64,000 nt of DNA from Lamellibrachia columna (Eukaryota > Annelida > Polychaeta > Sabellida > Siboglinidae): NCBI GenBank assembly GCA_963662155.1, contig OY759273.1:28496566-28560565 (forward strand), in the 5' to 3' direction. The position numbers and the translations under genes are program-made. This document shows positions 15,729 through 58,969 of the stretch, piece by piece. The stretch's first letter is position 1. Each line of letters opens with the position of its first letter. The notes beneath the pieces were generated by a model, which did no database searches, was not told the DNA's origin, and saw only the letters and a program-made list of their open reading frames with translations.

Positions 15729-16497
15729 CTTAATGACATCTTCACCAAAGTATCCTTCAAACGGCCTGTATTTGAACATTGTGACAACCCAGGCTAGCTT
15801 GCACGTCACAAAATCCGTGCCACATGGGTTTGGCAGTGACACCTCCGGTATAGTGACCGAATCAGAAAATAGTCTGGTGAGTTTATCCCACAGAGGACGC
15901 CTTATATCCCAAGGCTGTGAGCAATCTTGTTCAATGAGGTTGATAATCTTTACTTGGTGGTACAGTGTCAGATTACCATGTTCAGGTGGATCAAACTTCA
16001 GTGATACATCATCCGTGTAGTCAGGATCATAAGCAGGAAGGATGTAAACCATATATGGGGAAGCTGAATTCTTCCCACTGTTTTCCGGCATTGTTACCAT
16101 GGTGACAGATGATGGGAAAGACATCACATCCCCTCTCAAACATCTGAAGAGTTGGATAATCTGGTGTATTCCTTATGTTGACTAACAATTTCCCTTCAAC
16201 AGAGTGCTGGCTCCTCATCCGCACACGGAGTACAAGTCAACATACCATCAAGAGCTAAGCTCACATTGCCCATCGATGCTGGCGCAGTCTCATTAGACAG
16301 GAATGAGAGGTTTTTATCATCTGAATCTTCTGCTGATAGTTTGAATTGATACAGATTGATTGATTCAGATGTTATGCGTGGTGGTGTGTTGACAAACGTT
16401 TCGTTGGTGCTAGAGACACCGTATATAGCTGAGCTACTAATGATTGGTGCATATGTAGCCCGCTGCCTTCTGCCTGGCTTCTTGGGTTGTGACACAC
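15729..16497 (-). pseudogene. gene B: two tandem cadherin-like repeats, frameshifted exon
   Basis: The minus strand opens at an acceptor (tatgtgatag) before 16497 and closes at a donor (AAG then GTAAGG) after 15729. The first part is membrane-proximal-looking or linker sequence (KKPGRRQRATYAP), then a cadherin-like repeat (VNTPPRITSESINLYQF, LSAEDSDDKNLSFLSN, LDGMLTCTPCADE). It continues in another frame (VEGKLLVNIRNTPDYPTLQ). A second repeat follows in a third frame (SVTMVTMPENSGKN, PAYDPDYTDDVSLKF, CKLAWVVTMFKYRPFEG, YFGEDVIKV). Two frame changes are therefore needed, near 16200 and near 16110-16130. Each repeat keeps the family pattern of an acidic AEDSDD-type loop and a closing Y-x-G-E-D strand. 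Genomic decay or assembly indels are both possible. Confidence 0.6.
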
Positions 16498-16862
16498 CTA
16501 TCACATAAGCACATACACATTAGCTGTGACACACCTGTCACACAAACACATACACATTAGTTGTGACACACCTGTCACACAAACACAAAACACTTGAGCT
16601 GTGACACCTGTCACACAAACACTTGAGTTGTGACACATCTGTCACACAAACACAAAACACTTGAGCTGTGACACACCTGTCACACAAACACTTGAGTTGT
16701 GACACATCTGTCACACAAACACTTCAGCTGTGACATACTTGTCATACAAACACTTGAGCTGTGACACACCTGTCACGTAAACACTTAAGTAGAGAAACAT
16801 CTGTCACACAAACACAAACACTTGAGCTGTGACACACCTGTCACACAAACACATCAAGAAAA
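16498..16862. repeat. about 31-bp array copying the gene B acceptor
   Basis: On the minus strand each unit reads tgtgacag followed by GTGTGTCACAGCTCAAG. The exon itself begins tgtgatag followed by GTGTGTCACAACCCAAG. About nine to eleven units, some with an extra ACAAA, abut the exon start at 16497, so each unit carries an acceptor-like AG and the first bases of the exon. Confidence 0.85.
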
Positions 16863-17172
16863 CTGTTATATTGGAACTTAACCAATGACATATTAAATCA
16901 ATGGTCACCTGACCAATTAATTGATCAAGAAATGTAATGGATGAGAAAACCCTATGGACAATTTGTTTAATAATCCAACATTACAATAATCAATATATTC
17001 ATCAATGAGTTCTTCATCAACGTATTAAACAAAACAACCAGCCAGCCAACCCATGAAATTACTCATTCTGTGGGTGAATGAATGTAGTAAAACCTCTGTT
17101 AGTGGTTAGCTATAACTGTTCACAAACCAATGCTTCTCACTTCAAAGTCTCCTTTACACAAGTTGTGCAGGT

Positions 17173-17436
17173 TTATTCTGACATCTGTCTAAAAATGTGC
17201 GATATTATGGGGGATATCTTTTTAGCAGTTTCCTTCAGTATTTTGGCAGGTGCTTTGTTGGAGTTTAAAGCTTCAAATTGTTTTATGATGCCGTTTAGTC
17301 CGATTTCTAGGGTTTGAAGTGAGGGAGATGGTGATGCGTTTAGGCTAAAGCCTTGCCTTAACACAGTCAATAGAAAACTTTCCATTAATTTATTGTTCTC
17401 TGTGAGAACAAGTTCTTTCTCATATCCAACCTGCAC
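17173..17436 (-). mobile_element. LINE reverse-transcriptase N-terminal fragment
   Basis: This minus-strand frame of about 87 codons contains LNGIIKQFEALNSNKAP and then ILKETAKKISPIISHIF. That is the pattern at the start of many non-LTR reverse transcriptases (K-A-P, then L-K-E-x-A-x-x-I-x-P-I-x-x-x-I-F). The usual GPDGIP between the two is missing, and the frame stops soon after. No endonuclease or YADD region is attached. It lies just past the gene A terminal exon. Confidence 0.55.
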
Positions 17437-17446
17437 TGTTCCTCTA

Positions 17447-17577
17447 CTAGTGCTGTTTTGTGCCCTGTAGTTCTATTACCTTTTTAACTATGAAGAACAT
17501 CCACGCCAACAAGGATGCTGTCATTAACACTGAGATGATGCTTTGACTGGAAATGTATCTCTCCCAGTTGAACTGAG
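17447..17577 (-). CDS. gene A: terminal exon with transmembrane helix
   Basis: After an acceptor (atccctgcag) at 17578, the minus strand encodes a polar stretch (QFNWERYISSQS), a hydrophobic helix (IISVLMTASLLAWMFFIV) and KK, the classic order of a type I membrane anchor with a positive stop-transfer. The entering phase (two bases) matches the single base left by the exon ending at 23095. If the coding frame is read through, it ends VIELQGTKQH and a TAG at 17449-17447, a short cytoplasmic tail. A possible donor (GTAATAG) at 17479 would instead continue to another exon. I favour the terminal reading because the next exons look extracellular. Confidence 0.6.
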
Positions 17578-17589
17578 CTGCAGGGATAA

Positions 17590-19580
17590 ATTAATTTGTG
17601 TGCAGCATATTGACTCAACAAAACAGTCCATGACAATGAGTCATGGACTGTCGATGGAAACAATCTTGACAAGGTAATAAGATGAAATGTGGCACATAAT
17701 GCTATGTCAACAGCAGAGGTGTATTAGTTTGACGTTTGCAGATTGGGTGAAAGTAATTCACCATAGAGGGGCTGCACTATTGCTAGCATGTTGTTCTGTG
17801 TTAATTTGTTGGCTCGAACTTCATTAATTTTGATTTATTGGTGAATAATGTCTGACTTGTCAACTGTGTGACAAGAACGCCTTACACAGCTTTAAAACTG
17901 CCAGTGAATATAATTCAACTATAAAACAGGCTTGTTATCAAATGCATGTCAATACCATTTTCCAGGATCACATTCACATTCAAATACATTATATATGCAT
18001 CATAATTATATTAGCAAAGCTACTTGTTCTAATATAAGCATCAGTCAATGTAATACAACTATATACACCACGGTCTTACTTAGAAAGTGGATTTACAGGT
18101 CAGACAATGATTCTAAAATCTGCTGAGGAGTTTGTTAACTACAGGGCACTTTTTCAAAGTCTGACAAAAAGCATGTTTTGTAACTGTATTTACAATTCAT
18201 ACAATGTGAATGTTGATTTTATTAATGATGAATTTTGGCGTTTGAAATATAAAATGTTTCGGGGTTGCATTCAAATACATGCTCTCTGTTGAGTCTGGAT
18301 AATTTTTTTTTAGCTATTGCACGAATAGAAATTTTTTAATGTAAATGTTTGTTTTATGCAATCAAATGCACTGAAAATGTAACGACTGCTTTTGAATGTG
18401 CATGGCTACTGCATACCATCCAAAATGTGCATTCAAATGCATTTGTATCTGTTAACAAGTCCGCTACCAAATAATAGTTAAATGTAATATTATTGATTAT
18501 CATTTTACTCAAATATTTTTTATATACTATCAGATCACAATATGAGTGAAATTTCCAACATAAGTTTTTTGCTATTGACTCTTGGAGTAAAATATATATT
18601 GGTTCTATTGCATTAATTATTTCTGACGGGCAGATGCTTATAAACTACTAGAGCTATGATACGATGCAAAATATCTGATCCAAGCATAATTTTCAGTAAT
18701 CAAAAACACATGAAATAAAAATTTATTAATCTGGTATTCAGCATAAGTGTGATCTTTGTTCAGCATACTTTGATTTAAAAATACTGTCAATATGTGTGCT
18801 CTATAAATGTATGCCTGACATGAGAATTAGATTTAGGTCAGTCTCCCATGACATAACACTTATGACACACATGCCCCAGTGGTCTCATTAAGGGTCTGCT
18901 AATGAGGGTTATGAGGGTCACCAGTTATAATAATCTAGTACCAGGATGGTAGTAGAAGCCCTGCTGCTTGTACAACTGGTAGGAAATACATGATAAAGAA
19001 GACTTCTGATTGATTGATTTGTATCCTGTTCATTCCATGAGACAAAAGGTAAGAATGTTGTCCAGGCATATTCTTTTATAGCAATTTCACATGTCGCCCG
19101 GCCATGCGATAAACACTGCAAGTACATTTTGTGTGCAGCAGCCGGGCTGTTTGAAAAATGGCAGTTTGCATTTGTTATTATATTCAGTACTTTCAACTTG
19201 TCAACTTGATCATGAATAAAAATGAAAATAACCATTAACATGTCATCATTCTGACTGTTTTAACTTTCATAAAAGCTAATTTGTAATAAAATAAATCTAT
19301 GGATGAAATCCTTGCCTTTCACATACTAGGAAGTTCACTAACTGTATCTTCTGGCAATGTATTGTTCCTTCTTTGGTGTGTGCAGAATGACATGGACATC
19401 TAAATCATGCCACTGCTACGATTTCTTTGAAATTGTACACAATTCAAATACTTTTGAAATTTCAACTAATTGTTACTACGGCAATTTAGTTTTGCATTTG
19501 TTTGTACTTTACTGTGCCAGTAGTCCCCTCTTATAAGGTCACCCGTTCTGTAGAGGTACAAGGGCTGTAATGTGTGTGTG
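17590..19580. other. no recognisable gene
   Basis: AT-rich sequence with no convincing exon. If genes A and B are separate, this belongs to the last intron of gene A. A short stretch at 18080-18120 (acaggtcagacaatgatt) resembles one at 51395-51425 and may be a small dispersed repeat. Confidence 0.4.
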
Positions 19581-19589
19581 TTTGTGTGC

Positions 19590-19930
19590 GTTTGGTGTTT
19601 AAATCTGTGATCTTACATTTTACAATATACTGCAGTGAAATGACAAAAGTGAGCAAGTGACGATGGTTTTTTAAATATCGGACAAAACATATTTTGGTTT
19701 GCTCTCTTGTGCATATTACAGCACAGTAATTGTACACTATTCTTTGGACCATTTGACAAGGTGTATTTATAAAAATTATTAGTACTTTTTTGTGACATGG
19801 TTATTTGGTGACTTTGTGTCACTTGCTCCCTTTTGTCATTTTATAAATTAAGTTATTGACACAGAAAAATTTTGTGACATAGAGCAGCAAGTGCAATCAA
19901 ATCACCCTTGAATAACTCCCCTTAAGAAAC
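19590..19930 (+). repeat. dispersed repeat, inverted relative to 39110-39660
   Basis: Segments such as gagcaagtgacgatgg, ggacaaaacatattttgg, ttatttggtgacttt and ttgaataactccccttaa recur as reverse complements at 39110-39660. The two copies are diverged and keep the same internal order except for local rearrangement. Confidence 0.65.
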
Positions 19931-20179
19931 AATGAGGCAGGTCTTATGACAGAAATATGTGGCCAGTTGTCGTTTTTTTTAATTGGCAATGCTCAAAGTT
20001 CAGGCATGCGACGTTTTCCAGTTTTTGTGTCAATAAGGTATAGCTGTTGCTATTTGTTGTTGTGCAGTAAGAGTTTCATAAATTTGTCACTCGCCAATTT
20101 TGGAGAAAATATAATTAGACAGAACAGTGATATTTCAGCTGCAGTATGTAAAGGATTGTGCACAGTGCAAATACGATGA

Positions 20180-22745
20180 TCATAAGAATTGTCCCACATT
20201 TTATTCTGAAAGTTGAAATTTGTAAAATATCGAGTTTAAGGCTGAATTTTTCTGAAGATATAGTAACTACATTCCTATTGAACTAAGAAGTCATTGCAAG
20301 TATCCCTGACAGTATACAGTAGCACTTTGGAATTTGTCCTATAAAATAACAATTTGAAATACAGACTGCTAAAATCAGTCTCAGCAACAAAAACAAAATT
20401 AATGTTTGTACATACATTATCCTTCTCGTTATCATTCTTTAATTTTGTGATGCACATCTATACGAATATATCTAGACATTCAGCAAATTTAAGCTCTGTA
20501 GTTAGAGGCATATATAACAATTGCATTTACCCTTTAGCTTAGTTTTTTTGCAATGTTGCTCAGATATATCCATTTGCTAATTGGTTAAAATGTTCTGAGA
20601 CATCACCTTTTTTAATTTCCTGAAAATTGGTTGACTTGACAAGGAATGACCTTACTGGATATGAGAGCTGCAGACTGATTGCATGGTTGTCGCAATAACA
20701 TGTGATTCTATTGGTCACACACTTACTGCCTTTTCTCATAATAAAACACCATTCCATTGTCACTTGGTCCTTTATGCAGTGTCATCTGTAGAAAACTGCC
20801 ATCTAAAAGGTTTTATAATGTTAAAATATCAGTGATCAGTAGTTTTCCTTTTTTTAATAAAAATATTTAAATGAGAAAATGTTTCTTATTCCAAGAGTCT
20901 TTCTGGTGGTTTTTCTTGTTTTCAGAAAAATATTCTTACTAACGTAAAACATCCAAAATGACTACACGAAAAATATTCTTATTAAATTTAAGAAAACATT
21001 TCTTGATTTACAAATTTGAAGAAAAATTTTCTTGCTTTTCTTTTATTTAAGAAAACGCTTTTCTTATTTAAGAAAAAACATTTCTTACATAGGAACAATT
21101 TCCTTGGATAAATAAGAAAATATTTCTATAGTCTTTTCTTGATTTTTGTGAACTATTTTCTTTCTTTCTTTAATCACGAAAATGAGAGTATGCAACCACG
21201 GTTGCATACAGGATTTTAAGCTAGCAACAGTGCGAGCAGGGCACGGAAGGGTCAATAGGTCATGCTAATTTATGCTAATTTAGGGGTAGGCAAAGAAACC
21301 TGGATTATTGACTAAGCGCTCCCGTGACACCGCTAAACCAATCAGAGCGCAGCTGTCATTCGAATGACGCAGTTTGAAATTAAGCAGCTTCACTCCAAAT
21401 GTTCGATGCATGCGGAGTAGACCTGCTTTCTCGGTTTTAGTAATTTTTCGACCCCCCCTCCTCCCCACTTTATCCTGCATACGGTTACATTAATGTGTTT
21501 AGTAGTGTTGTGCTTGGTAACATTTTGTACATTGACGGTGGAAGTGAAGTCACCACCTTCCATATGACGCTTTCCCAGTGGACATTGCGTTTTTAATTTG
21601 GCTATCTGCCCGTTCACGTAGGGTTTTGGTGCGGAGTGGAAGATGACTTCCCTTCCATCGATGTTGGGATGGTTTATTGATAATTGGCGTTATGGCCCCA
21701 CCTTTTAGGTTACTAAAATATATAGAGTAGGAATTTTAGCAAGTAGTGTAGTCCAGTGCTGTATGCAAATAGGTATTGTGTCAAATATTGTCGGTGTTGG
21801 GTTAATGTTTTAATGTGCTGGTGACGATGCCATGAATTGTCTTGTGTTGTAGCAATATTACTACATGTACTGTATTGCTATGTCGAAATGTGGGCTCTGG
21901 GAGCATTGTGTCCAGGTGGCTTTGTATGAGGCTCAGCCACAGGCTTGGCATGTTACAGGGTCCACATTTCATGCTCTTAATCAGAATAATATGCCATTTG
22001 GCCTTTTCATATCTTTACATCTGGCTTGCGTTGTTGATTGCATAAATAATTGTCTTACATGGCTCCCTAGAAAATATTTCTTGTTTTAAGTTTTGTTTCT
22101 TAAAACAAGAAAACAATTTTTACCAGTGCAGCGCCAACTGGAATCAAAAGCAAGCCAGTTCAAGTGATGCATAAAATAATTGTGTATAAATATTTAAATG
22201 CTAGTGTATGAAGGGGAAACCTAATGATTTAGCATTAACACGTTGCATAAATAACATCTTGGTGCATAGAAATTATGTATGTACTTACCCGGTTTTGTTA
22301 ATTTGGTGGTGGAATACTGGAGGAAACTCCACACCCTGCAAATCTTCAGCCACAAATTTACATTCCTTTCAGAAAAGAACATTAATTATAACAAGCATCT
22401 ACAACTTTTAAAATGTGATCAAATACCCCATAAACAAATGTCTTGGTATATAAATATTGTATAAGCACATCTTTTTCCAACAAAGTTACAAAACATATTT
22501 CTTTTATAAGTCAACACAATGTTCAGATTTGTTTGATGATAATAATACTGTTCCTCAGATGTAATAAGTAAAGTAATTTAATTAATATATATGAACACTG
22601 TACTATCGTGACAGTAGCATTTACGAACATACTTGTGAGTTTAGATTTAATTTAATTGACCTGATAAATGTGTGAGGTTAATTTAATTTAATGGGAACAT
22701 TTCTGAGTTAATTGTAATTTAATTAATTAACTTTTCAAGTTAATT
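20180..22745. other. intron-like AT-rich region, no gene
   Basis: No exon, RNA gene or known element recognised. Between about 20868 and 21175 the sequence alternates AAGAAAA- and TTTTCTT-type blocks, giving short inverted motifs. Confidence 0.4.
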
Positions 22746-22754
22746 GCCCCATGC

Positions 22755-23094
22755 ATACCTGTCACTATGAGACAGGAGATGACAATACAGTCTCTAACCG
22801 GTCACTACGAGACAGGAAATGACAAGACAGACATAATCCTGTCACTATGCGAGAGGAGATGACAAGACAGTCAACAACCTGTCATTATGAGACATTATGA
22901 GACTGAGACATGAGATGACAAGATAGACACTAACCTGTCGCTATGAGACAGGAGATGACAAGACAGACACTAAAATGTCACTATGAAACAGGTGATGACA
23001 AGACAGACATAAACCAGTCACTATGAAACAGGAGATAACAAGACAGACACTAACCTGTCATTATGAGACAGGAGATGACAAGACAGTCACTAAC
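22755..23094. repeat. 40-bp array copying the donor of the 23095 exon
   Basis: About eight units of roughly 40 bp. On the minus strand the exon ends TGTGCAG and the intron begins GTTAGTGACTGTCTTGTC. The array repeats ACAGGTTAGTGTCTGTC at each period, so each intact unit carries a donor-like CAG/GTTAGT. The first unit starts at the splice site itself. Confidence 0.85.
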
Positions 23095-23287
23095 CTGCAC
23101 ACCAGTGCAGTATCCATGCGTGAATGTCTTGCATGAAGTCTTCCAGCTGAGTTTTGTCAAATGGCATAGTGATGCTGAGTGGCTTGTTGACCGTCTGATC
23201 TGGGAGGGTCGACACAGTTGTTCCGTCCCATCGTTGTATCCTGGATACAGTCAATAACACTGTACGTTGAAAGTCTGACAGTGTCAA
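23095..23287 (-). CDS. gene A: extracellular exon
   Basis: Minus-strand exon between an acceptor (ttccctgtag) and a donor (GTGCAG then GTTAGT). It is open for 64 codons: TLSDFQRTVLLTVSRIQRW, DGTTVSTLPDQTVNKPLS, ITMPFDKTQLEDFMQDIHAW and ILHWCAG. No named domain is recognised. It looks like a folded extracellular module just before the membrane anchor. Its leaving phase (one base) fits the transmembrane exon. Its entering phase (zero) does not fit the two bases left by the exon ending at 23780, so a one-base lesion or a different splice site is likely between them. Confidence 0.6.
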
Positions 23288-23475
23288 CTACAGGGAACAC
23301 AGGGGTCTCACGGTGTGGTGAATGAGAATTATGTTATTTATGAAGACATCAAGTAATGCTATATTGGTAACATAGTATATTTAGACAAAATGTTATTGAA
23401 ATAACATTGAAATACCAACATTATAAATATGAACATCACTTTTGAATAACACTGCAAACTAAAACACAAAAGTAC

Positions 23476-23779
23476 TTATACTAAGTGACCTTTTACAAAT
23501 CAATCTCCCACCTGTTCTTTTAGTAAAAGGAGCCTACAAGAGCAATATACTAAGTCATCTTTCACAAGCCAATATCCCACCTGTTCTTAAGTAGGAGCCT
23601 ACAAGAGCAATATACTAAGTGACCTTTTACAACCCAATCTCCCACCTGTTCGTTTAGTAAAAGGAGCCTACAAGAGCAATATACTAAGTCATCTTTCACA
23701 AGCCAATCTCCCACCTGTTCTTAAGTAGGAGCCTACAAGAGCAATATACTAAGTGACCTTTCACAAGCCAATCTCCCAC
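23476..23779. repeat. 65/69-bp alternating array copying the donor of the 23780 exon
   Basis: Five occurrences of cccacctgttc at 23507, 23576, 23641, 23710 and 23775 give alternating spacings of 69 and 65 bp. On the minus strand each is GAACAG followed by GTGGGAGATTGG, the same as the exon/intron border of the preceding exon (GGAACAG/GTGGGAGATTGG). Each unit therefore holds a full donor-like site and also a tgtag acceptor-like site. Confidence 0.88.
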
Positions 23780-23975
23780 CTGTTCCTCAAGTATCTGTCT
23801 GTTTTGTCCCTGGTTGACTCGGGGGCGACAATGAATGACTTGAATGTGTCCGATGTCCTTGATAGGTACTGGGCAGTAAAGTCATCAGCTGACAGAAAAC
23901 CCCCGGTCAGCATCTTGTCACTGGTCTGGGCTGTGAGAGCAAGAATCACTTTACCCTTCAAGTTAATTGTAATGT
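23780..23975 (-). CDS. gene A: extracellular exon flanked by arrays on both sides
   Basis: Minus-strand exon with acceptor gtctttacacag and donor AACAG/GTGGGA. The frame reads DITINLKGKVILALTAQTSD, KMLTGGFLSADDFTAQYL, SRTSDTFKSFIVAPESTRD and KTDRYLRN. Its entering phase fits the upstream exon ending at 26568 (one base plus two). It resembles no domain I can name. Both its acceptor and its donor have been amplified into tandem arrays in the adjoining introns. The length (196 nt) is not a multiple of three, unlike the symmetric exon upstream, so a one-base lesion is possible. Confidence 0.6.
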
Positions 23976-26535
23976 CTGTGTAAAGACTGACTGGGCTGTG
24001 AGTACAACAATCACTCTACACTTCAAGTAAGCTGTAATGTATGTGTATAGACTGACTGGGCTGTGAGTACAACAATCACTCTACACTTCAAGTAAGCTGT
24101 AATGTCTGTGTAAAGACTGACTGGGCTGTGAGTACAACAACCACTCTACACTTCAAGTAAGCTGTAATGTCTGTGTAAAGACTGACTGGGCTGTGAGTAC
24201 AACAACCACTCTACACTTCAAGTAAGCTGTAATGTGTGTGTAAAGACTGACTGGGCTGTGAGTACAACAATCTCTCTACACTTCAAGTAAGCTGTAATGT
24301 CTGTGTAAAGACTGACTGGGCTGTGAGTACAACAATCAGTCTACACTTCAAGTAAGCTGTAATGTCTGTGAAAAGACTGACTGGGCTGTGAGTACAACAA
24401 TCACTCTACACTTCAAGTAAGCTGTAATGTGTGTGTAAAGACTGACTGGGCTGTGAGTACAACAATCTCTCTACACTTCAAGTAAGCCGTAATGTCTGTG
24501 TAAAGACTGACTGGGCTGTGAGTACAACAATCAGTCTACACTTCAAGTAAGCTGTAATGTATGTGTATAGACTGACTGGGCTGTGAGTACAACAATCACT
24601 CTACACTTCAAGTAAGCTGTAATGTCTGTGTAAAGACTGACTGGGCTGTGAGTACAACAACCACTCTACACTTCAAGTAAGCTGTAATGTGTGTGTAAAG
24701 ACTGACTGGGCTGTGAGTACAACAATCTCTCTACACTTCAAGTAAGCTGTAATGTCTGTGAAAAGACTGACTGGGCTATGAGTACAACAATCTCTCTACA
24801 CTTCAAGTAAGCTGTAATGTCTGTGTAAAGACTGACTGGGCTGTGAGTACAACAATCAGTCTACACTTCAAGTAAGCTGTAATGTCTGTGAAAAGACTGA
24901 CTGGGCTGTGAGTACAACAATCACTCTACACTTCAAGTAAGCTGTAATGTATGTGTATAGACTGACTGGGCTGTGAGTACAACAATCACTCTACACTTCA
25001 AGTAAGCTGTAATGTCTGTGTAAAGACTGACTGGGCTGTGAGTACAACAACCACTCTACACTTCAAGTAAGCTGTAATGTGTGTGTAAAGACTGACTGGG
25101 CTGTGAGTACAACAATCTCTCTACACTTCAAGTAAGCTGTAATGTCTGTGAAAAGACTGACTGGGCTATGAGTACAACAATCTCTCTACACTTCAAGTAA
25201 GCTGTAATGTCTGTGTAAAGACTGACTGGGCTGTGAGTACAACAATCACTCTACACTTCAAGTACGTTCTAATGTCTGTGTAAAGACTGACTGGGCTGTG
25301 AGTACAACAATCTCTCTACACTTCAAGTAAGCTGTAATGTCTGTGAAAAGACTGACTGGGCTGTGAGTACAACAATCTCTCTACACTTCAAGTAAGCTGT
25401 AATGTCTGTGTAAAGACTGACTGGGCTGTGAGTACAACAACCACTCTACACTTCAAGTAAGCTGTAATGTCTGTGTAAAGACTGACTGGGCTGTGAGTAC
25501 AACAATCTCTCTACACTTCAAGTAAGCTGTAATGTCTGTGAAAAGACTGACTGGGCTGTGAGTACAACAATCACTCTACACTTCAAGTAAGCTGTAATGT
25601 CTGTGTAAAGACTGACTGGGCTGTGAGTACAACAATCTCTCTACACTTCAAGTAAGCTGTAATGTGTGTGTAAAGACTGACTGGGCTGTGAGTACAACAA
25701 TCTCTCTACATTTCAAGTAAGCTGTAATGTCTGTGAAAAGACTGACTGGGCTGTGAGTACAACAATCACTCTACACTTCAAGTAAGCTGTAATGTGTGTG
25801 TAAAGACTGACTGGGCTGTGAGTACAACAATCAGTCTACACTTCAAGTAAGCTGTAATGTCTGTGTAAAGACTGACTGGGCTGTGAGTACAACAATCACT
25901 CTACACTTCAAGTAAGTTCTGATGTCTGTGTAAAGACTGACTGGGCTGTGAGTACAACAATCACTCTACACTTCAAGTAAGCTGTAATGTCTGTGTAAAG
26001 ACTGACTGGGCTGTGAGTACAACAATCACTCTACACTTCAAGTAAGTTCTAATGTCTGTGTAAAGACTGACTGGGCTGTAAGTACAACAATCAGTCTACA
26101 CTTCAAGTAAGCTGTAATGTCTGTGTAAAGACTGACTGGGCTGTGAGTACAACAATCTCTCTACACTTCAAGTAAGCTGTAATGTGTGTGTAAAGACTGA
26201 CTGGGCTGTGAGTGCAACAATCTCTCTACACTTCAAGTAAGCTGTAATGTCTGTGTAAAGACTGACTGGGCTGTGAGTACAACAATCACTCTACACTTCA
26301 AGTAAGTTCTAATGTCTGTGTAAAGACTGACTGGGCTGTGAGTACAACAACCACTCTACACTTCAAGTAAGCTGTAATGTCTGTGTAAAGACTGACTGGG
26401 CTGTGAGTACAACAATCACTCTACACTTCAAGTAAGCTGTAATGTCTGTGTAAAGACTGACTGGGCTGTGAGTACAACAATCACTCTACACTTCAAGTAA
26501 GTTCTAATGTCTGTGTAAAGACTGACTGGGCTATG
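23976..26535. repeat. 65-bp array of about 40 units filling an intron
   Basis: The unit contains ctgactgggctgtgagtac, aatcactctacacttcaag and taagctgtaatgtctgtg. The period is exactly 65 bp (for example gactgactggg at 23985 and 24050). On the minus strand each unit is gtctttacacag plus ACATTACAGCTTACTTGAAG plus about 30 further bases, matching the acceptor and first 45-50 bases of the 23975 exon. The array occupies almost the whole intron between 23976 and the donor at 26567. Variants (cact, ctct, cagt; tgtgtg or tctgtg) recur in longer patterns. Confidence 0.95.
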
Positions 26536-26567
26536 AGTGCAATAATCAGCATGAGCCAAGAACTTAC

Positions 26568-26741
26568 ACACACTGTCGATGTTCTCATCCTTGGGTGGTT
26601 TGTCCCAGATGACACCAACGCCATCCTGTCGTGACATCTTTACTGCTGGTACGTCAGTTCTTGTGTCATCGAATGGCTCCATGTCGTCCATTGATGTAGT
26701 CATGTTGTCTACATTTGGCGACTCAGTTTTGATGGTGACAC
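26568..26741 (-). CDS. gene A: acidic extracellular exon
   Basis: A 174-nt symmetric exon (two bases in, one base out) with acceptor atcattccag and a strong donor, GTAAGT. It encodes VTIKTESPNVDNMTTSMDD, MEPFDDTRTDVPAVKMSRQ, DGVGVIWDKPPKDENIDSV. The frame is open. The W-D-K-P-P motif with acidic flanks resembles a linker between fibronectin-III-like repeats, but I cannot name a domain. It is the first exon after the Mutator-like element in transcription order. Confidence 0.6.
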
Positions 26742-27667
26742 CTGGAATGATGACATCAAGTCTATACAGGCAATACATATCAGTAAAAGTGTTGTAGTTT
26801 GGTCATTGTAATATTTGACAGAAACTACTTGGTCATTGTAATATTTGACAGAAATTACAAAATAACTTGACTTATCAAGCAGCTTTCTGTCAGTAAAAAA
26901 AGAATTTTCTCATCGTTTAAGGCGTCGCTTGGGTCTAAACACATTTTATTTTCTTATTTCATTATCACTGAACCTACAGAGCTGAAACTTTCAGAGATTG
27001 CAAGTGCAGGTAACAGTAATGCTGTGAATTTTTTTCAGAAAGTTTCGTACAGATTTTCCCACGGTAGGCAGCCATCTTGGATTAAATGTTGCGTGTGACT
27101 TATATCAGTAACCATTGGGTTTAGAGGGCTCAAATTTTTTGTGTAGTTACTCCACATAACCCTAATGAAAACAGTCTGTTGACTTTCTTAGTTTTCAAAA
27201 AACTTTTTTTAAGGATTTTTTTTACATCTGAATGTATTTTTTCATCATGAAATTTTACATTGATGGTTCATTATATAAAATATAGGTAATGTTTTCTAAA
27301 AAGTTACTACATAGTTTTCAAGAGTATACTATCAAGAAACACTGTGGAAAGTTTCAGGCAATTCTGTCAAACAATAGCCGAGATAAGTGACACGGGAGGC
27401 AGTAGGTGTGAGGCAAAACATGTTTTTGAGAAAATCGCGTTCAAAGTTTATGTACATTGGCACATACATTTCAACATCTGAAAAGCAACCTAGATGATTG
27501 AAACTTTGCACACACATTACTGAATGTATAATTTATCAAAAGGCACATTTCAGAGTCATTGGCAATGTAAAATAATAAAAATATATCACAAACTAAGCAA
27601 CTTATCACAATAAATGTACCAAACAGAAAAACGTCTGGAAAATAGCACACCAGTCCATAGTTCATAC

Positions 27668-27757
27668 AGATAAAGTTTACTGGAGCATATGTAAAGTTCA
27701 CTGGAGCATATGTAAAGTTCACTGGAGCATATGTAAAGGTCACTGGAGCACAGCAAA
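27668..27757. repeat. 21-bp tandem repeat after the transposase stop
   Basis: Four units of actggagcatatgtaaagt plus two bases, period 21 bp, end five bases before the transposase stop codon on the complementary strand. They lie in its 3' untranslated part. Confidence 0.9.
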
Positions 27758-27761
27758 ATCC

Positions 27762-29497
27762 CTAAAACGCCCCAGGTGCATAGGTGGAGGCATCTCGAGC
27801 CATTGTTCGAGCAACCTTTCGTGCCCGACGGGCCTCCATCGTGCTGGCCTGCACTTGCCGCACAGACTCTCGCAACCGACGACTGTCTGCCTCTGCAGCT
27901 GACACTTTCAGTCGACTGCCACACTGCAGCCCCATTATTGCATAGCTGCGCGTCACCGTCGAACCAATCCCCTGATTGAATTCCGCAATCGCCAAACAGG
28001 TTGCAGCACAAACACGCATCAGGCCAACGAAGCCTGTCTTTGGACATTTGAGCCACACCTTCGAGTGCAGGCTCTCGTTAGCGTTCTGCGTCTTGCCCTG
28101 CAAGCAGCGATCCAGCAGGTCAGGATGGCCGAGACGGACGTACACCTCCTTGACCTTCTCTGCAACGTCCTTTGCTAAGGGTGTGCCAACTTTGTCCCGG
28201 TGGTAGCCTGGCTCCTCTCCCTTTGCCAGTGCCCGCTGGAAGAAGCACCAGCTGTTGCGGCCAATGGGGCAGTGGTTGTGGTGGGGTTCCTCATCGGTGG
28301 ACGCCGCATGGAAGAAAGACGCGAAGACTGCACTCCGCATCGCGTCCTTGTCACCCGTGCAGCTCCGAATTGCCTTTCCATAATACAATGTCAGCTTGTT
28401 GATGGCTGCCAGGGTGAGCTTTCCGTGCCCGCGTCCACCGAGAGTCACTCCAGTCTTCTTGGTGTCCTTGGTGAGGTTACGCAGTGCCGTCCCCATTCGC
28501 TTTGCAACATGGTTGATGCACTCCTCCTTGCGGATGTCCACACCTGCGCCATACACCTTCAAGTCACACACATGTTTGTAGGTGCTAGAGTCTCCATCTG
28601 ACAACATTGTCGTGAGCGGAAGTTGTGCTTCCCGAGAGAGTTGTTCCACAGAATCTCTGCAGCCGTTTTCTCCATTGCGTTGGAGGACCCGGTGTAGTTT
28701 GCTGTACAGTTGTCATGCGCCTTGTACCACTTCTTGAAGTCGTCAGTGTCCCGGCCTCCATAGCGTGACGCTGCGCATGCACAGCGCTGGCAGTAGAGCG
28801 ACAGGATGGTGAAGTCGATCACCAGTCCTGTCACCACCTCCACGACGCATCCGATGCCATACATAGACCAGTGGCCTCGGGTCATCCAGGAACCATCGAA
28901 ACTGACCATGAGGTCCATGACACCGGATTCGTCAATGGAGGGGTCAAGTTCTTTGTACACTCTGCGCACGATTTGGGCAGACTCGCACATAACATCGTTC
29001 GCAACACGCATACTTGCATTGGTAATTGCTGTCTCATGTGTGATGTAGGTCGTGTGGTGCATCACTGGCATGTCGAGGTAGCGGCAGAATTTCACAAGTC
29101 CCGAGTACCCGACACCCATGTCCATCGTTGCAGACACAGCTGATCTCACCACGACAAACGGGGCATTCGTCGCCTGAGTCCCATCGGTACGGTCTGATGA
29201 CAGAGTTGCATTGATGACCTTGTCGCAACTGGTGCAGACAGTCTCGAGGCGACACACCATGCCAAGGGTGCGGTCGACAGCTCGGATGGAGAGTGTACGC
29301 TTCCTACACAACGTGCATGGCAGGTTCGCGACAAGTGATGGCAACACGGCACAGCGTACAAGTACTGTTGAAAGATCAGCATCTGTCTCATCCTCAACCA
29401 GGAAGCGCGGGACACCTATCTCCTCCAGAAGATCTGCATAACCAAACTTCTGTTCAGTGGCAGACAGTCTCCGAGATGCTGATGGCCGCCTTGAAGC
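27762..29497 (-). pseudogene. Mutator-type transposase, exon 2, one frameshift
   Basis: Two overlapping minus-strand frames together encode about 575 residues of a DDE transposase of the Mutator-like group (resembling the Pfam Mutator family found in marine invertebrates). In order: a CxxC pair (LPCTLCRK), a second (CTSCDK), FCRYLDMPVMHHTTYITHE, the first catalytic Asp in MVSFDGSWMTRGHWSMYGIG, CQRCACAASRYGG, NYTGSSNAMEKTAAEILW, then the second Asp in TTMLSDGDSSTYKHVCD, ECINHVAKRMGTALRNLTK and the probable catalytic Glu in QNANESLHSKVWLKCPKTG. The frame changes by one base near 28610, between NFR and TTMLSDGD. Everything else is open, so the insertion is young or only recently inactivated. The stop is TAG at 27764-27762. 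Confidence 0.85.
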
Positions 29498-29842
29498 CTG
29501 GAAAAAAATACACAATCTAAATGTATTTCATGAACAAAAATGTTCAACAACATGCGCGTGTGTGTATATAGGCTATGTATACGATAATTATCAATGCAAG
29601 TTGAGGCAATATAATAAACCATAGTCACAACTCTGCCTCTGGTGTGCCTGGATGGCCCCTAGGCCTGAATGTCAACACAGCCACGAACATCAACAGCATG
29701 AACTAGATCAGCGTCAAATCGTTTATACAGCAATAGTTATGCCACAAAGGCTAACGGTGTTTGGATAAAACACAAATGTATATAAATCTTAATCATATGC
29801 ACTATCATAATGAATATATGAAATATAAGAAATTAAACTTAC

Positions 29843-30016
29843 ACTGCGTTCCATTCTCGCTGGCACCATGGACATGGTCGAAGACGAAGTTGTCGCTGTA
29901 GGTTCATTAGCGTATTCAACCCTCGATACCTTCGCACAGCGCGCTAACTGCAACGATGCAAGCTTTCGCTTCCTCCCAGTAACGTAACCGCCCACTCGCT
30001 TTCGACAAAACGGCAT
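29843..30016 (-). CDS. Mutator-type transposase, exon 1
   Basis: Begins ATG at 30016 and encodes 58 residues, basic at first (MPFCRKRVGGYVTGRKRKLA), then TATTSSSTMSMVPARMERS. It ends at a consensus donor (AGT then GTAAGTTT) in phase 0. The acceptor tttttttccag before 29497 resumes in phase 0 with ASRRPSASRRLSATEQKFG, so the splice keeps the reading frame. The basic start could be a nuclear localisation signal (inference). Confidence 0.75.
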
Positions 30017-30019
30017 AAT

Positions 30020-30860
30020 GTCGTTTCACAAAGCGATATAAATGAACGAAACGCAGAGGATAAAAAATTCGATCGAATCGAACGTAGCTGGTATTTCAAG
30101 CTGACGTCAGATGATGGAAATTAATATTACAACCAATTAGAGCGCTTGATTTGAGGGAATCCGACATCATGTGATGCTGCCCGGCGAATCGTCGTGGGAT
30201 TCCCCATTCCTTTGTCACCGAGATGGTTGAAAGGCAGTCATTTATAGTCGGGATTACACGGATACCCGCCGCGCAAATTTTTAAACTGTTTGTACCATCA
30301 TGCAGAGCGAATATGGGGCTTTCCCGTGATATGCGCCATGTTGGAATGGCAGCGTTTTCTGGCATGCAATCGCTGGCGGAAAATCACCTAATGTTCCATT
30401 AGTCTCGGTTCATTTGACAAAAACAAAGACTTCGCAATGATAGGTATCATACAAAAGACATGTTTTATGACAGAAACGTGTTTATTTACATGAATGGCAA
30501 GTTGAATAATATTTATACACGGAAATGGCAACAACTCGAAATTCATTTTATTGTCAAAAATCCGTCAAATCTGACCCGAGTCTCGTTAAAACAATCTGTT
30601 TTCCAGAACAAAGAACGATGCTTTGGCAGTTCATGTAGAAGTATTTCCTTGTTATAAACAACCATTTGTCTCAAAGAATTTAGAATGGTTGAACTGACAG
30701 GTTAATGTTGAAGTATTTCACTGACAAGCAGAGATTGCAGAGAATGGAGAAAGGATGCACTGGCAGTTAAATGTAGTAGAATACATATTACCTCTCTCTC
30801 GCTGTTAGCTGTAGTTGCGACTATGACTGCTTACTTATAGTTCACAATAAGTCCTCTCCA
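30020..30860. other. transposon 5' flank and gene A intron
   Basis: A minus-strand open frame at 30096-30365 has no recognised domain and probably belongs to the element's 5' untranslated or terminal region. Nothing else is seen. Confidence 0.35.
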
Positions 30861-31049
30861 GATTGGTCTTTCATTGGCAACTAAGTACAACTGCTTTTTC
30901 CTGCAAGTTTCCCTTTACTATGTCTTTGAATATAAGTTTGGGGTGACCTCTGTTTCTAGTACCCTCTGACAGTTGGGAGTGCTGAAGAAAACCACACTTC
31001 CATAAACAACTGGAACATATTAAAGAGTAATGAAGTGAGTGACTTTGCG

Positions 31050-31233
31050 ATGAGTTGGTTGTATTTAGTCCAGCATCGTTGACACACACCAACGTCACAT
31101 AGTAGGTGTGGTTCTCAAACAGCAAGCCTTCTAGCGAAGTGTTGCTCACAAATGACTCGGCTCCAATGTTGACAAAGGGCTGCACATCAGTGCCACCTGG
31201 TGACCTGCCAATAGACCACCATGTTTCGACCAC
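31050..31233 (-). CDS. gene A: fibronectin-III-like exon
   Basis: Minus-strand exon after acceptor cttagtgtag. It reads VVETWWSIGRSPGGTDVQP, FVNIGAESFVSNTSLEG, LLFENHTYYVTLVCVNDAG and LNTTNSS. This is the second half of a fibronectin-III-like module: a W-S-I-G-x-x-P-G-G-x-D-V strand and then the YYVTLVCVNDAGL strand. N-glycosylation sequons (NTS, NHT, NTT, NSS) support an extracellular location. The downstream donor is not sharp (GTCACT near 31045). Confidence 0.65.
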
Positions 31234-31570
31234 CTACACTAAGATAGCCGATAGTCCTGAGAGTCAATTATAGTTTTGTGAGTTACCAAGTTATTAATAA
31301 ATGAAGATGAAAATGACTTATGGCATGTGTACTGGACTGAGAAACATAATTGGGGAAACTGAACAAACATTTTCAGAATAAATACTCAATTTTATAAATA
31401 TTCTAATATTATTGCAAACAATGTACATTACTGATGGTTATTATTTGTTGTGATATTCTATTATATATTGGTTACTTGACCCCAGCTTTTAACACAACAG
31501 ATCTTACTTTTGAATGAATCTATGAAGGCTGGGTGGTTTCAATCAAATGAAGCGTGAGAGAGAGAGAGAG

Positions 31571-31865
31571 AGGTACGGTAGTGTAGTGGCAAGCACATCT
31601 GCTTTACACGACTGAGTTCTCAGTTCAAGACCAGGACCAGGCAAGGATATGTTTGGTGTAAAAAACTAGTCCTCAACATTGAGGACCTTGTATCTCTCGT
31701 GACTCGGATGATCATGTTAATGTTGGTCCCGTCTCATTTAATTGGGGACATAAAAGAACCATTGAGGACAACATGCACCCTGGCAGCGACCACCCTCAAT
31801 GTCGGCATATAAAAAGGTCGGCTTGGTGATATTGTTCTGAAAAAGGGTGGCTAGTTGAATGAGGC
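31571..31865 (+). mobile_element. tRNA-derived SINE
   Basis: An A-box-like stretch (gtgtagtggcaagca, from 31581) is followed at the right distance by a B-box-like gttcaagacc (31623-31632), the internal promoter layout of tRNA-derived SINEs. The body continues with ctcatttaattggggaca and ccaccctcaatgtcgg. The 5' end directly follows a (GA)n run. It sits in a gene A intron. Confidence 0.7.
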
Positions 31866-32101
31866 CGCGTGACAACATAAAATTGTAGTAACCACAACAT
31901 ACAGACTAGTTAGTTAATAGAACATTGCCAAGTGCTGGAAACAACAAACATATAAACAAACAAACAAACACACGATACACTACCTGGCTCTCTCCCTCTC
32001 GACCACTTCATAGTAGATGATTAGATGGCAATGGACGAGTTGTCTCCCTGAAAGGTTGTGGGCTCGGACTTACTCCAGGAGAAATCAATATGGAATATCA
32101 C

Positions 32102-32292
32102 CTGAATGACGGGTGGTGTCGTATCAATGTAGACCCCAGTTGAAGACACTGTCACGGAACCCAGTGACAGCCTTGACAGTCATAAAGTACGGCTGCAGGA
32201 GACTCTCATTGCTGTGTCTCATCAGCCTGACAGGATGGTGCACAGACAACTTGATCACATACACTCCTGCAGGGAAGACAAGGTCGGCTGAT
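32102..32292 (-). pseudogene. gene A: fibronectin-III-like exon with a frameshift
   Basis: Acceptor tgtgtttcag and donor CAG/GTGATA bound this minus-strand exon. One frame gives SADLVFPAGVYVIKLSVHH, RLMRHSNESLLQPYFMTVK and AVTG. A second frame gives VSSTGVYIDTTPPVIQ, the standard linker of this module family. The frames meet at about 32150-32160 and differ by one base. The entering phase also disagrees with the preceding exon. As assembled it cannot be translated in one frame. Confidence 0.65.
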
Positions 32293-32526
32293 CTGAAACA
32301 CAGGACAGTCAGGATTTTGGTAATTAGGTCTGATCTGAAACACCACCACAGTCAGATGAGGACAGTCATGACTTTGGTAAACAGGATCAAGAGTTGACCT
32401 GATCTGAAACACCACCAGTCAAATTATGAGGACAGTCATGATTTTGGTAATCAGGATCTAGATAGAAACATCACCACACTGTCAGATGATGAGGGCAGTC
32501 AGGGCTTTGCTAATCAGGATCCAGAG

Positions 32527-32542
32527 AGAGAGAGAGAGAGAG
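32527..32542. repeat. (GA)n microsatellite
   Basis: A short GA run within a gene A intron. Confidence 0.9.
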
Positions 32543-32685
32543 ATCATATTTACTGTTGCGTAGGGATATCTTGTTGATGAATTACGTAGGAATGACTTAA
32601 TTTATTTTGGAAAAAAAAACATATAGGTTTATATTTATATGCAATACAGTGTGATATATCTGAACACTTGATAAGTCTGAATTAC

Positions 32686-32889
32686 CTTGTGGAACATGAC
32701 TACATCCTGAGAATAGGCAGTTGTTCCAATGGCTGCCTGGAATTCAACTACTGGGTGAGAGCTTCCTTGGAATGTGGCTCCAAAATGACACAGCTGAGTG
32801 GACGAGGGAGGAAACTTGCAAGTCACACCAACATAGGTTAAACAATGCCACATCAACAGAGGTGAGGCCAACTTGAACTCCCAGTTCTC
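32686..32889 (-). CDS. gene A: fibronectin-III-like exon
   Basis: Minus-strand exon, acceptor ttgatttgcag and donor CACAAG/GTAATT, exactly 68 codons and open. It reads ENWEFKLASPLLMWHCLTY, VGVTCKFPPSSTQL, then VVEFQAAIGTTAYSQDVVM and FHK. The AIGTTAYSQDVV signature is typical of the centre of these modules; the first part fits the end of the preceding module. The 51-bp array in the preceding intron ends about 10-20 bases before this acceptor. Confidence 0.68.
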
Positions 32890-32894
32890 CTGCA

Positions 32895-33560
32895 AATCAA
32901 CACAGACATCACACACAAGACAACAAACACTGTGTCTGACAGTGATAGCAACACAGACGTCACACACAAGACAACAAACACTGTGTCTGACAATGACAGC
33001 AACACAGATGTCACACACAAGACAACAACCACTGTGTCTGACAATGACAGCAACACATATGTCACACACAAGACAACAAACACTGTGTCTGACAGTGATA
33101 GCAACACAGATGTCACACACAAGACAACAAACACTGTGTCTGACAATGACAGCAGCACAGACGTCACACACAAGACAATAAACACTGTGTCTGACAATGA
33201 CAGCAAAACAGTTGTCGCACACAAAACAACAAACACTGTGTCTGACAATGACAGCAACACAGATGTCACACACAAGACAACAACCACTGTGTTTTGACAA
33301 TGACAGCAAAACAGATGTCACACATGAGACAATAACCATTCTCTGACAATGACAGCAATATAGATGTCATATACAAGACAACAAAACACTGTGCCTGACA
33401 ATGACAGCAAAACAGACGTCACACACAACAACAACCATTGTGTCTGACATGACAGCAACACAGACACCACACATAAGACAACAACCACTGTGTCTGACAA
33501 TGACAGCAACAGAAACGTCACACACAAGACAACAATCACTGTGTCTGACAATGACAGCGC
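32895..33560. repeat. 51-bp array next to a gene A acceptor
   Basis: About twelve units with aacactgtgtctgacaatg, acagcaacacagatgtcac and acacaagacaac; period 51 bp (32926 to 32977). The intron end before the 32889 exon (gatgtctgtgttgatttgcag on the minus strand apart from the last bases) is a diverged copy of the unit, whose own minus strand carries ctgtcag/ACACAG. 51 bp is 17 codons, so long open frames appear by period alone. Confidence 0.92.
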
Positions 33561-33931
33561 CACCTGGCCTTGACCCTTGCCAACACCTGCATGTAAGGGT
33601 CACAGTAAGTTTATTGTTATTTCATAAAATTTGCTGCAAATAAGAAATACATTTGCTTTGTTTGATCCAAATTAGTTTAATATGCAATACTGAATAATGT
33701 ACTGATGATATCAACATTACAATACACATTCTAGTTAAATACCAAAGGTATGAAGTCATGACATTTCCATTCCTTCTTAATTAGTTAATGTGAGACATGG
33801 TCTAAAATAATTTTTTATGTCTGATAATTAAGGAGAAACATGAAAATAATCCTGCTGGTTTAATTTGATTCCACTATTTATGTCACTTAAAAGAAATGAT
33901 TTAATGCACAATAAAGTCTGTGTCATCTTAC

Positions 33932-34173
33932 CCAGCATTCCATCTGTGCCACCGTCCTCCTTGATCAGGTTGACATATGACGTCATGAAGTTTTGGAGCC
34001 GAGCCAACTGCCCGCTGATAATGAGCCACGCTATCTCTCTCACTCTCATAGCCACTGAATGTCACTGTCACCTCAGACTTGTCGATTTGGTAGTCAATGT
34101 CCAGCTGAGTGTCCGGTCCATCACTGAGTCACTGACCACTCCAGCCACATTTCCAGACACCATCTTAATGGCA
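33932..34173 (-). pseudogene. gene A: fibronectin-III-like exon with an 8-bp duplication
   Basis: Minus-strand exon, acceptor gttgtag and donor GCTGG/GTAAGA. The first frame reads AIKMVSGNVAGVVSD. A second reads GPDTQLDIDYQIDKSEVT, VTFSGYESERDSVAHYQR, AVGSAPKLHDV. The junction contains AGTGACTC directly followed by AGTGA. Leaving out one 8-bp copy puts GVVSDGPD into frame, the expected family motif, so a tandem 8-bp duplication is the simplest cause. A further shift may precede SYVNLIKEDGG near 33990. The WSGFES-like core is kept as FSGYES. Confidence 0.7.
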
Positions 34174-34335
34174 CTACAACATACAATGGACAGTTATTTA
34201 ATACTTGATGTCACTACAAAATACAATGAACACTTAGTTAATACTTTGGTGGCACTACAACATACAATGAACACTTATTTAATACTTGATGGCACTACAA
34301 CATAAAATGAACACTTATTTAATACTTGATGGCAC
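34174..34335. repeat. 40-bp array copying the acceptor of the 34173 exon
   Basis: Four units with period 40-41 bp (gcactacaac at 34171, 34211, 34252, 34292). On the minus strand each unit is tgtatgttgtag plus TGCCATCAAG; the exon itself starts gttgtag/TGCCATTAAG. Acceptor and first exon bases are thus repeated upstream of the exon. Confidence 0.85.
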
Positions 34336-34734
34336 TAAGATGTAAATGTACAATGAACAACTGCATTAATAAATCCAACAGTAAATCACTCATCTAATGC
34401 AACACCAAGCAGCTGTTTAATTAATGTTTTGCAATCATTAGAAATTCTATCTAAAACTGTTCACAAATAAATTGTATTAAACCAAAGTTGGTGGTGACAA
34501 GTTATAAACAATTTCTTTTTAAACACCTTCCGAACAGGAACCTATTTCACTAAAGTTCTAAATGACACATATTTCCCAATTCAATTGAAATCAGCTCATC
34601 ATTATTTTAGTGAAATGTATTGCTGTTACTTTAATTTACACTAATGTAATATTACAATTTCACAGTAATAAAGTGTAATGATGAAGGTTCCCACTGTGAA
34701 GACACAAGAGTGCTCTCTCTCTGCCAGCTCCATT

Positions 34735-35670
34735 CACTGCCTTTGCTACTATTATGATGGAAGTGATGTCTCTCCAGAGAGTTGAAAGATGGAACTATGT
34801 TCTTCTCTGTGTGTTGTACAACCTTCCTGCTACTGGGGCATACAATATTAAGGGTCTATTAGGATGTAAGTGATGTCTCTCAAGAGGGTTGAAAGATGGA
34901 ACTATGTTCTTATTTGTGCGTAGCACAACCTTCCTGCTACTGGTGCCTAAAATATTAAGGGTCTATTAGGATGTAAGTGATATCTCTCCAGAGAGTTGAA
35001 AGATGGAACTATGTTCTTCTCTGTGTGTAGTACAACCACCCTGCTACTGGGGCCTAAACATTAAGGGTCTATTAGGATGGCAGTGATGTCTCTCAAGAGG
35101 TGTGAAAGATGGAACTAAGTTCTTCTCTGTGTGTAGTACAACCTTCCTGCTACTGGGGCCTAAAATATTAAGGGTCTATTAGGATGGCAGTGATGTCTCT
35201 CAAGAGGTGTGAAAGATGGAACTATGTTCTTCTCTGTATGTAGTACAACCTTCCTGCTACTGGGGCCTAAACTATTAAGGGTATATTAGGATGTAAGTGA
35301 TGTCTCTCCTGAGGGTTGAAAGATGGAACTATGTTCTTCTCTGTGTGTAACACAACCTTCTTGCTATTGGGTCTAAAATATTAAGGGCATATTAGGATGT
35401 GTGTAGTACAACCACCCTGCTACTGGGGCCTAAACATTAAGGGTCTATTAGGATGGCAGTGATGTCTCTCAAGATGGTTGAAAATTGGAACTATGTTCTT
35501 CTCTGTGTGTAGTACAACCGTCCTCCTACTGGGGTCTAAAATATTAAGGATCTATTAGGATGGAAGTGATGTCTATCAAGAGGGTTGAACGATGAAGCTA
35601 TGTTCTTTTATGTGTGTAGTACAACCTCCCTGCTACTGGGGCCTAAAATATTAACGGTCTATTAGGTTAT
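34735..35670. repeat. about 107-bp array, 8 units
   Basis: Units contain gtgatgtctctc, ttgaaagatggaactatg, ttcttctctgtgtgtag and ctactggggcctaaa. Successive starts are 34763, 34870, 34978, 35083, 35190, 35297, 35459 and 35566, so the period is 105-108 bp with one partial unit at about 35400. The array lies in a gene A intron. Unlike the others, it does not obviously copy a splice site. Confidence 0.9.
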
Positions 35671-58652: not shown

Positions 58653-58969
58653 CTGTAGGTAGGATGCAGAAACAACAACACTCAATCAGCTTTAGTTTTC
58701 CATGTCTGCATACAGATATTCTGTGTATTCTATCTAACATATAAATAATTTATGATGGTCTGTGTGTTGTGTCCTATTCCCCTTCTGACTAACATAGAGG
58801 GTCAAATGGGGAACCGTCCATCAAACATCTTCTTCCTTGTAATGTGGCCAAAGTACCCAAGCTTTCTTGTCATCACTTTTCTCAATAGTCAACAATTGTT
58901 TTCGATTTTACTTATATAATCATTTCTTTTCTATCCAGCCAATAAACAACCACCTTCTTCCACCCCGAC

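Follow-up and report, generated by a model that had tools for sequence, protein, structure and literature searches.

Tandem arrays whose units span a splice junction, and thus carry copies of the splice site, occur at nine splice sites of a single gene family in the tubeworm Lamellibrachia columna, as determined from the printed sequence and the scoring of individual units. The arrays were recognized in a 64,000-nucleotide stretch of contig OY759273.1 (positions 28,496,566 to 28,560,565 of the forward strand; hereafter the window), which is contig C13 in our numbering of a genome of 880 Mb and 30 contigs. Unit sequences differ among the sites, and both kinds of border are represented, with four donors (23095, 23780, L021:3393 and the donor of exon e4) and five acceptors (16497, 23930, 32292 at exon e8, 34173 and the acceptor of exon e4). 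Five of the nine had been noticed in an initial inspection of the sequence, the original prediction, to which are added 32292, the donor at L021:3393, and the e4 donor and acceptor found in paralogues. These arrays are very probably minisatellites of the type termed mirages, each born when a segment spanning an exon-intron junction was duplicated in tandem, after which they grew as ordinary minisatellites do.

The site-copying arrays within the window are the following.

16481 to 16853, minus strand: 31-bp array copying acceptor 16497; AG kept in 9 of 10 extra copies
22757 to 23097, minus strand: 40-bp array copying donor 23095; GT kept in 6 of 8 extra copies
23477 to 23793, minus strand: 65/69-bp array copying donor 23780; GT kept in 4 of 4 extra copies
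23926 to 26548, minus strand: 65-bp array that fills the intron between exons E1 and E2 and copies acceptor 23930; AG kept in 40 of 40 extra copies
32293 to 32529, minus strand: 70/63-bp array copying acceptor 32292 (exon e8); two extra acceptor copies, each retaining AG, at 32334 and 32403
34164 to 34337, minus strand: 40-bp array copying acceptor 34173; AG kept in 4 of 4 extra copies

Every array named in the original prediction was recovered by Tandem Repeats Finder (TRF). Its proposal that five arrays in the window start from exon borders, with the splice site included in the repeated unit, holds for all five, with four of the five coordinates exact and the fifth acceptor lying at 23930 rather than 23975. 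The further proposal that the border is repeated in each unit is correct for most units and not for every one, as the counts of GT and AG in the list indicate. The 70-bp array at acceptor 32292 was absent from that prediction, as was a 38-bp array over the donor at L021:3393, 6.6 kb upstream of the window, which has 12 extra copies with GT intact in eight. Units at the edges of the 65-bp array appear to escape homogenisation, although this was seen by eye only, in the printed sequence.

Exact borders were read from the printed minus-strand sequence together with unit scoring, with acceptors given as the first exon base and donors as the last. Matches to two L. satsuma proteins, P0001 and P0002, stop within a few bases of 26568, 23930, 23780, 23240, 23095 and 32292, and at these protein-supported borders the splice motif sets the exact base. 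The P0001 gene model joins exons near the outermost borders and stops soon past 23095, and the borders at 16497, 34173, 3729 and L021:3393 are supported mainly by splice motif and reading frame. A homologue, P0003 (63% amino acid identity), runs from the exon end of the 23095 donor into 10.6 units of 43 bp that back-translate to CAG/GTCAGTG. This period gives 96% lag agreement as compared with at most 81% in 500 shuffles, and a 40-bp period was rejected because 43 bp fits.

Array positions in relation to splice borders

Array edges in this family lie at splice borders more often than expected by chance. We considered 19 independent arrays (one locus each), scoring a hit where an edge falls within 20 bp of a splice border and taking random placement in the same intron as the null; 11 of the 19 hit a border, with 3.36 expected (P=1.9e-6). 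The excess is retained when arrays with a null probability of 0.3 or more are removed (8 of 15, 1.23 expected, P=1.5e-6) and when only protein-supported borders are used (7 of 11, 3.02 expected, P=0.0036), and a 48-bp array of the paralogue L032 falls outside the 20-bp limit by 3 bp. Left out of the 19 were microsatellites, periods under 20 bp, arrays inside a Mutator-like transposon (MULE), arrays of window 36 to 64 kb and of L025 to L027 and L029 (where borders are not known), the 64-bp array of L032, whose intron was covered only in part, and a 39-bp repeat of two copies with which L031 ends.

Two arrays stop just short of a border, and others in the window lie away from one.

3743 to 14056, minus strand: 27-bp array of 383 copies, stopping 14 bp short of acceptor 3729; AG not copied
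32898 to 33558, minus strand: 51-bp array, stopping 9 bp short of acceptor 32889; AG not copied; unit also present in the paralogues L032 and L033 on contig C9
14195 to 15610, minus strand: 43-bp array, 118 bp from a border (TRF)
34749 to 35666, minus strand: 107-bp array, 119 bp from a border (TRF)

Two more arrays away from borders are a 30-bp repeat of two copies at 26799 and a 29/21-bp array at 20984. The first two rows had been put forward as a possible seventh and a sixth array ending against acceptors they resemble; both acceptors are right, but neither array copies its splice site.

Several observations weigh against a junction origin for these minisatellites. Eight arrays among the 19 lie away from any border, and arrays of 51, 25 and 27 bp adjoin one without copying the site. 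The copy L027 (C5:51814600-51819599) has a 38-bp array within a region that is exonic elsewhere, which speaks against a pure border rule, and L031, the best-preserved relative, is without a site-copying array in the stretch examined. A genome-wide motif test for three perfect donors spaced 20 to 50 bp apart found 442 places, as compared with 485 in a backwards control. When the donor motif was counted as arrays on contigs C1 to C4, for which both lists are complete, there were 10 against 5 (one-sided P=0.15, at low power). The corresponding acceptor motif gives 120 against 48 in the control and is uninformative, as 97 of the 100 listed places fall in one stretch of contig C9. A genome-wide bias of arrays to splice sites, as had been envisaged, thus finds no clear excess in what is a weak motif test, and a process targeting splice sites is not shown by it.

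The C9 stretch in question (C9:39540118-39625965) is probably a satellite: its 97 listed matches, each containing three CTTTTCAGG, extend across some 86 kb, frequently at intervals of 49 bp.

One alternative is that these are ordinary intron minisatellites that have filled their introns up to the exons, with the likeness to a splice site being no more than the last unit meeting the border. The 65-bp array agrees with this, although because it fills its intron (null probability 1.0) its position is uninformative, and so do the arrays that adjoin a border without copying it. However, the small 31-bp and 40-bp arrays lie at the border in a 6.6-kb intron with a null probability of 0.013 each, the excess of hits does not depend on arrays of high null probability, and the two-copy state in the paralogue L033 described below already spans its donor, such that intron filling seems quite improbable.

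A stronger proposition is that splice junctions are true birth hotspots for minisatellites, with breakage or template switching biased to them by motif or by transcription and splicing. There are nine independent sites in one family, the arrays favour intron edges over interiors, and the exon part is under one third of the unit at seven of the nine sites (P=0.008 for evenly spread breakpoints). Nevertheless, at one site the unit extends 50 bp into the exon, the nine sites are chance sightings and not a sample, and the three-donor pattern and the array counts on C1 to C4 both speak against it. We therefore consider a true hotspot unlikely, and prefer tandem duplication across individual junctions followed by ordinary growth.

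Duplication states in C9 paralogues and fate of the copied sites

A protein search with the exon encoding P0002 residues 407-541 listed 13 matches on contig C9, none with a stop, and four C9 paralogues (L031, L032, L033 and L034) were compared. Five successive exons were spliced in L031, L032 and L033, reading without a stop in L031 and L033 and with one stop in L032. The exon lengths of 250, 158, 176-179, 130 and 366 nt are equal within 3 nt in the three paralogues, and the borders are therefore fixed.

Site-copying arrays are present in two of the three C9 paralogues checked over these five exons. At the e4 donor there is one copy of an 82-bp unit in L031, two in L033 and 12 in L032, constituting a birth series. 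A 64-bp unit at the e4 acceptor is present in 2.3 copies in L032 and as a remnant in L033, and a 76-bp unit at the e8 acceptor is repeated in L032 and decayed in L033, where the copied acceptors no longer have AG in that place; neither repeat is found in L031 or L034. In L032 and L033 the arrays of 51 and 25 bp adjoin the acceptors of e6 and e7, and L031 has a single array between the examined borders, 38 bp from the nearest of them. The two-copy 82-bp duplication of L033 stands beside five stop-free exons (only those five having been read), and its joint contains about three bases that by eye are foreign to both flanks, which would fit end joining.

The unrelated units, and the presence of 1, 2 and 12 copies at one donor, bear out the original prediction of separate tandem duplications across junctions followed by expansion. 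It had also invoked splice-site duplication as a route to new introns, but the five exons of L031, L032 and L033 show no additional intron, and their lengths agree to one codon.

We propose that an array starts when a segment of 31 to 82 bp, in most cases mostly intron with a few exon bases, is duplicated in tandem. The junction-spanning units and the one, two or many copies in paralogues are the directly visible part of this origin, to which a short duplication would be the first step. The array would then grow and shrink by unit steps, as is evident among genomic copies, probably through slippage or unequal exchange. The outermost original site presumably continues to define the exon; because the new copies all lie on the intron side, its use would splice out the whole array and leave the protein unchanged. 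The extra copies are probably tolerated through poor exon definition, having no exon sequence behind them. The arrays of the window are passengers in a broken copy of the gene, which reached many chromosomes as part of a block of at least 77 kb.

The original prediction regarded the copies as decoy sites. We scored them with an approximate metazoan splice matrix, and the decoy series are mixed, with some equal to the real site and others weaker. In the window, intact extra copies score as well as or better than the real site in 4 of 4 cases for the 65/69-bp array, 9 of 9 for the 31-bp array, 3 of 4 at 34173 and 2 of 6 at 23095. Elsewhere the counts are 4 of 8 for L021, 10 of 10 and 1 of 1 for the 82-bp donor units of L032 and L033, and 4 of 5, by a loose pattern, for the 76-bp acceptor units of L032. 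None of the 40 copies at acceptor 23930 reaches the score of the real site (9.9, with a median of 7.3 for the copies), nor does either copy at 32292. At several sites the decoys are thus as good a match to the consensus as the real site, but at 23930 and 32292 none is.

These scores raise the question of whether the decoy series are functional, serving splicing regulation or isoforms in a fast-evolving gene family. At several positions most copies do equal the real site in score, and the 23095 donor has an array also in P0003, a homologue with 63% amino acid identity. A function is nonetheless highly improbable: the copies at 23930 and 32292 always fall short, copy number varies freely (33 to 65 units), the gene in the window is broken, both e4 and e8 are without copies in L031, and the L033 copies at the e8 acceptor lack their AG.

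Mirages and related duplications

Mirages were first described in lancelets, and in amphioxus they are known in Adh3, the globins BflGb6 and BflGb9 and troponin C, with similar repeats in PGBD5 (PMC3087553, PMC3902484). They lie at either a donor or an acceptor, are unstable in length, and have splice signals in many but not all units (PMC3087553, PMC3902484). The tubeworm arrays are of the same kind, and we call them so because three settled features match: the unit spans an exon-intron boundary (here at nine sites), both 5' and 3' boundaries are involved, and length is unstable, this being here among genomic copies and paralogues and not among alleles. They are distinct in phylum, being from an annelid, in density, with nine sites in one family, and in the birth series, with nascent to mature arrays in paralogues. 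Unlike the amphioxus examples as described there, the tubeworm arrays also occur in broken copies dispersed through the genome, and they are known from DNA alone.

Two other systems share parts of this behavior. Intron 7 of human factor VII has its donor in the first unit of a repeat with similar copies downstream, of which normally only the most upstream is used (PMC6627357); the arrangement of first-unit donor and downstream copies is alike, but factor VII involves one donor in one gene, whereas here donors and acceptors of several exons are affected. In potato RdRp an intron was gained through tandem duplication across an intron-exon boundary (PMC4974935). The duplication there also crosses a junction, but potato gained a new intron, whereas the five exons checked here have kept their lengths and no new intron was seen. 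Intron minisatellites are reported in an earthworm metallothionein, and are not said in the accessible part of that report to span splice sites (PMC12783039); tandem repeats have also been described in human segmental duplications (PMC2812944). Among the titles and abstract openings searched, no tubeworm or annelid mirage was found.

Mirages had been suspected to be typical of cephalochordates in general and to give rise to new introns. A dense annelid set, with paralogues before, at and after a first duplication, makes it testable whether junctions are special in the birth of minisatellites, and by what means numerous good copies of a site are skipped in splicing. If the hotspot explanation were true, a junction origin of minisatellites would not be a lancelet oddity. 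It is conceivable, though on balance rather doubtful, that junctions are minisatellite birth hotspots across distant animals and that junction-spanning duplication has been a main source of intron growth in the tubeworm lineage, traceable event by event in a gene family whose arrays range from one copy to dozens.

The dispersed block and its gene family

The window is part of a block of at least 77 kb that is repeated on many chromosomes at approximately 98-99% identity. A 481-bp exon piece has at least 59 matches in the genome (40 of 151 candidates scored), of which 20 are full length or nearly so and three, including that of the window itself, reach the full 868 bits; full-length matches at 96% or more lie on contigs C1, C2, C3, C4, C7, C9, C12, C13 and C14. 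The C14 copy aligns along the whole window at about 98-99%, excepting the fast-changing arrays and a nested MULE, and the match continues upstream for at least 13 kb beyond the window (L021, L029). A probe 15 kb upstream recurs at approximately 100% on C2, C14 and C9.

Genes A and B of the original prediction are broken here; the window's gene is a defective copy inside this block, and the arrays are its passengers. Five block copies were compared; the 8-bp duplication that breaks the frame is an identical string in all five; a second frame-break string is found in four and a third string in all five. A working gene in the window was rejected because these frame breaks are common to the block copies. 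The five copies also have identical arrays at identical borders, the 27-bp array being measurable in four, and a separate origin of the arrays in each copy was rejected on this ground. Each duplication event in the window thus occurred once, in an ancestor of the block copies.

Eleven stretches were measured for length across the block copies. Lengths are constant within 1 bp for the 40-bp array at 23095, the 65/69-bp array, the 40-bp array at 34173 and the 107-bp array, and within 12 bp for the 70/63-bp and 51-bp arrays. Variation amounts to roughly one unit in the 43-bp array, the 31-bp array measures 373 bp in four copies and 592 bp in the fifth, the 65-bp array has 33, 36, 40, 51 and 65 units in the five copies (2168-4312 bp), and the 27-bp array ranges from 10.3 to 18.2 kb in the four measured. 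The MULE region differs between copies as well. The gap between E1 and E2 is 541 to 4320 bp in 13 copies in which the exons were paired by eye. More distant copies at 85-86% (L025 and L026) retain the 31-bp array, and L025 also a 40-bp array. L027 is a subfamily copy lacking window 16270-26770, and has its own 38-bp and 56-bp arrays.

The exons of the broken copy that could be placed are all on the minus strand, and the nested transposon lies among them.

23095 to 23240, minus strand: exon E3, 98% amino acid identity to L. satsuma P0001 251-300
23780 to 23930, minus strand: exon E2, 94% amino acid identity to P0001 202-252; also matches Ptychodera P0004
26568 to 26741, minus strand: exon E1, 95% amino acid identity to P0001 144-203
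26922 to 30582, minus strand: nested MULE (PF20700)
32686 to 32889, minus strand: exon e6/e7, acceptor 32889, 93% amino acid identity to P0001 35-104
33932 to 34173, minus strand: exon with the 8-bp tandem duplication breaking the frame (by eye)

Comparison with the paralogues suggests that e6 and e7 are fused in the window copy. The MULE is present in the window, C13b and C2 block copies, with a gap at its place in the C14 and C12 copies (L001, L006).

The top protein match of the window exons is P0001, with four exon matches at 93-98% identity; further homologues are the 616-residue P0002 of L. satsuma (nine member sequences) and the 781-residue P0004 of Ptychodera flava. A Pfam scan of P0001 to P0004 gave no matches at E<=0.1, and the family pieces scanned have no domain above cut-off. 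The family has motifs of the 'DTTPP' and 'DPESG' kind, which we take to suggest a repeated extracellular protein. A viral origin was rejected, the identified content being a host-like protein family, LINE-like fragments and the MULE.

Elsewhere in the window, the segments at 51.5-54.1 kb and 61.5-64 kb, which lie about 10 kb apart, resemble each other; both contain GGGA-rich arrays and short frames that are nearly identical, and between them is a weak reverse-transcriptase match below the Pfam cut-off. A 77-bp array at 58961-59738, near which no exon is known, has a donor-like consensus unit on the minus strand, GGCAG/GTAATT.

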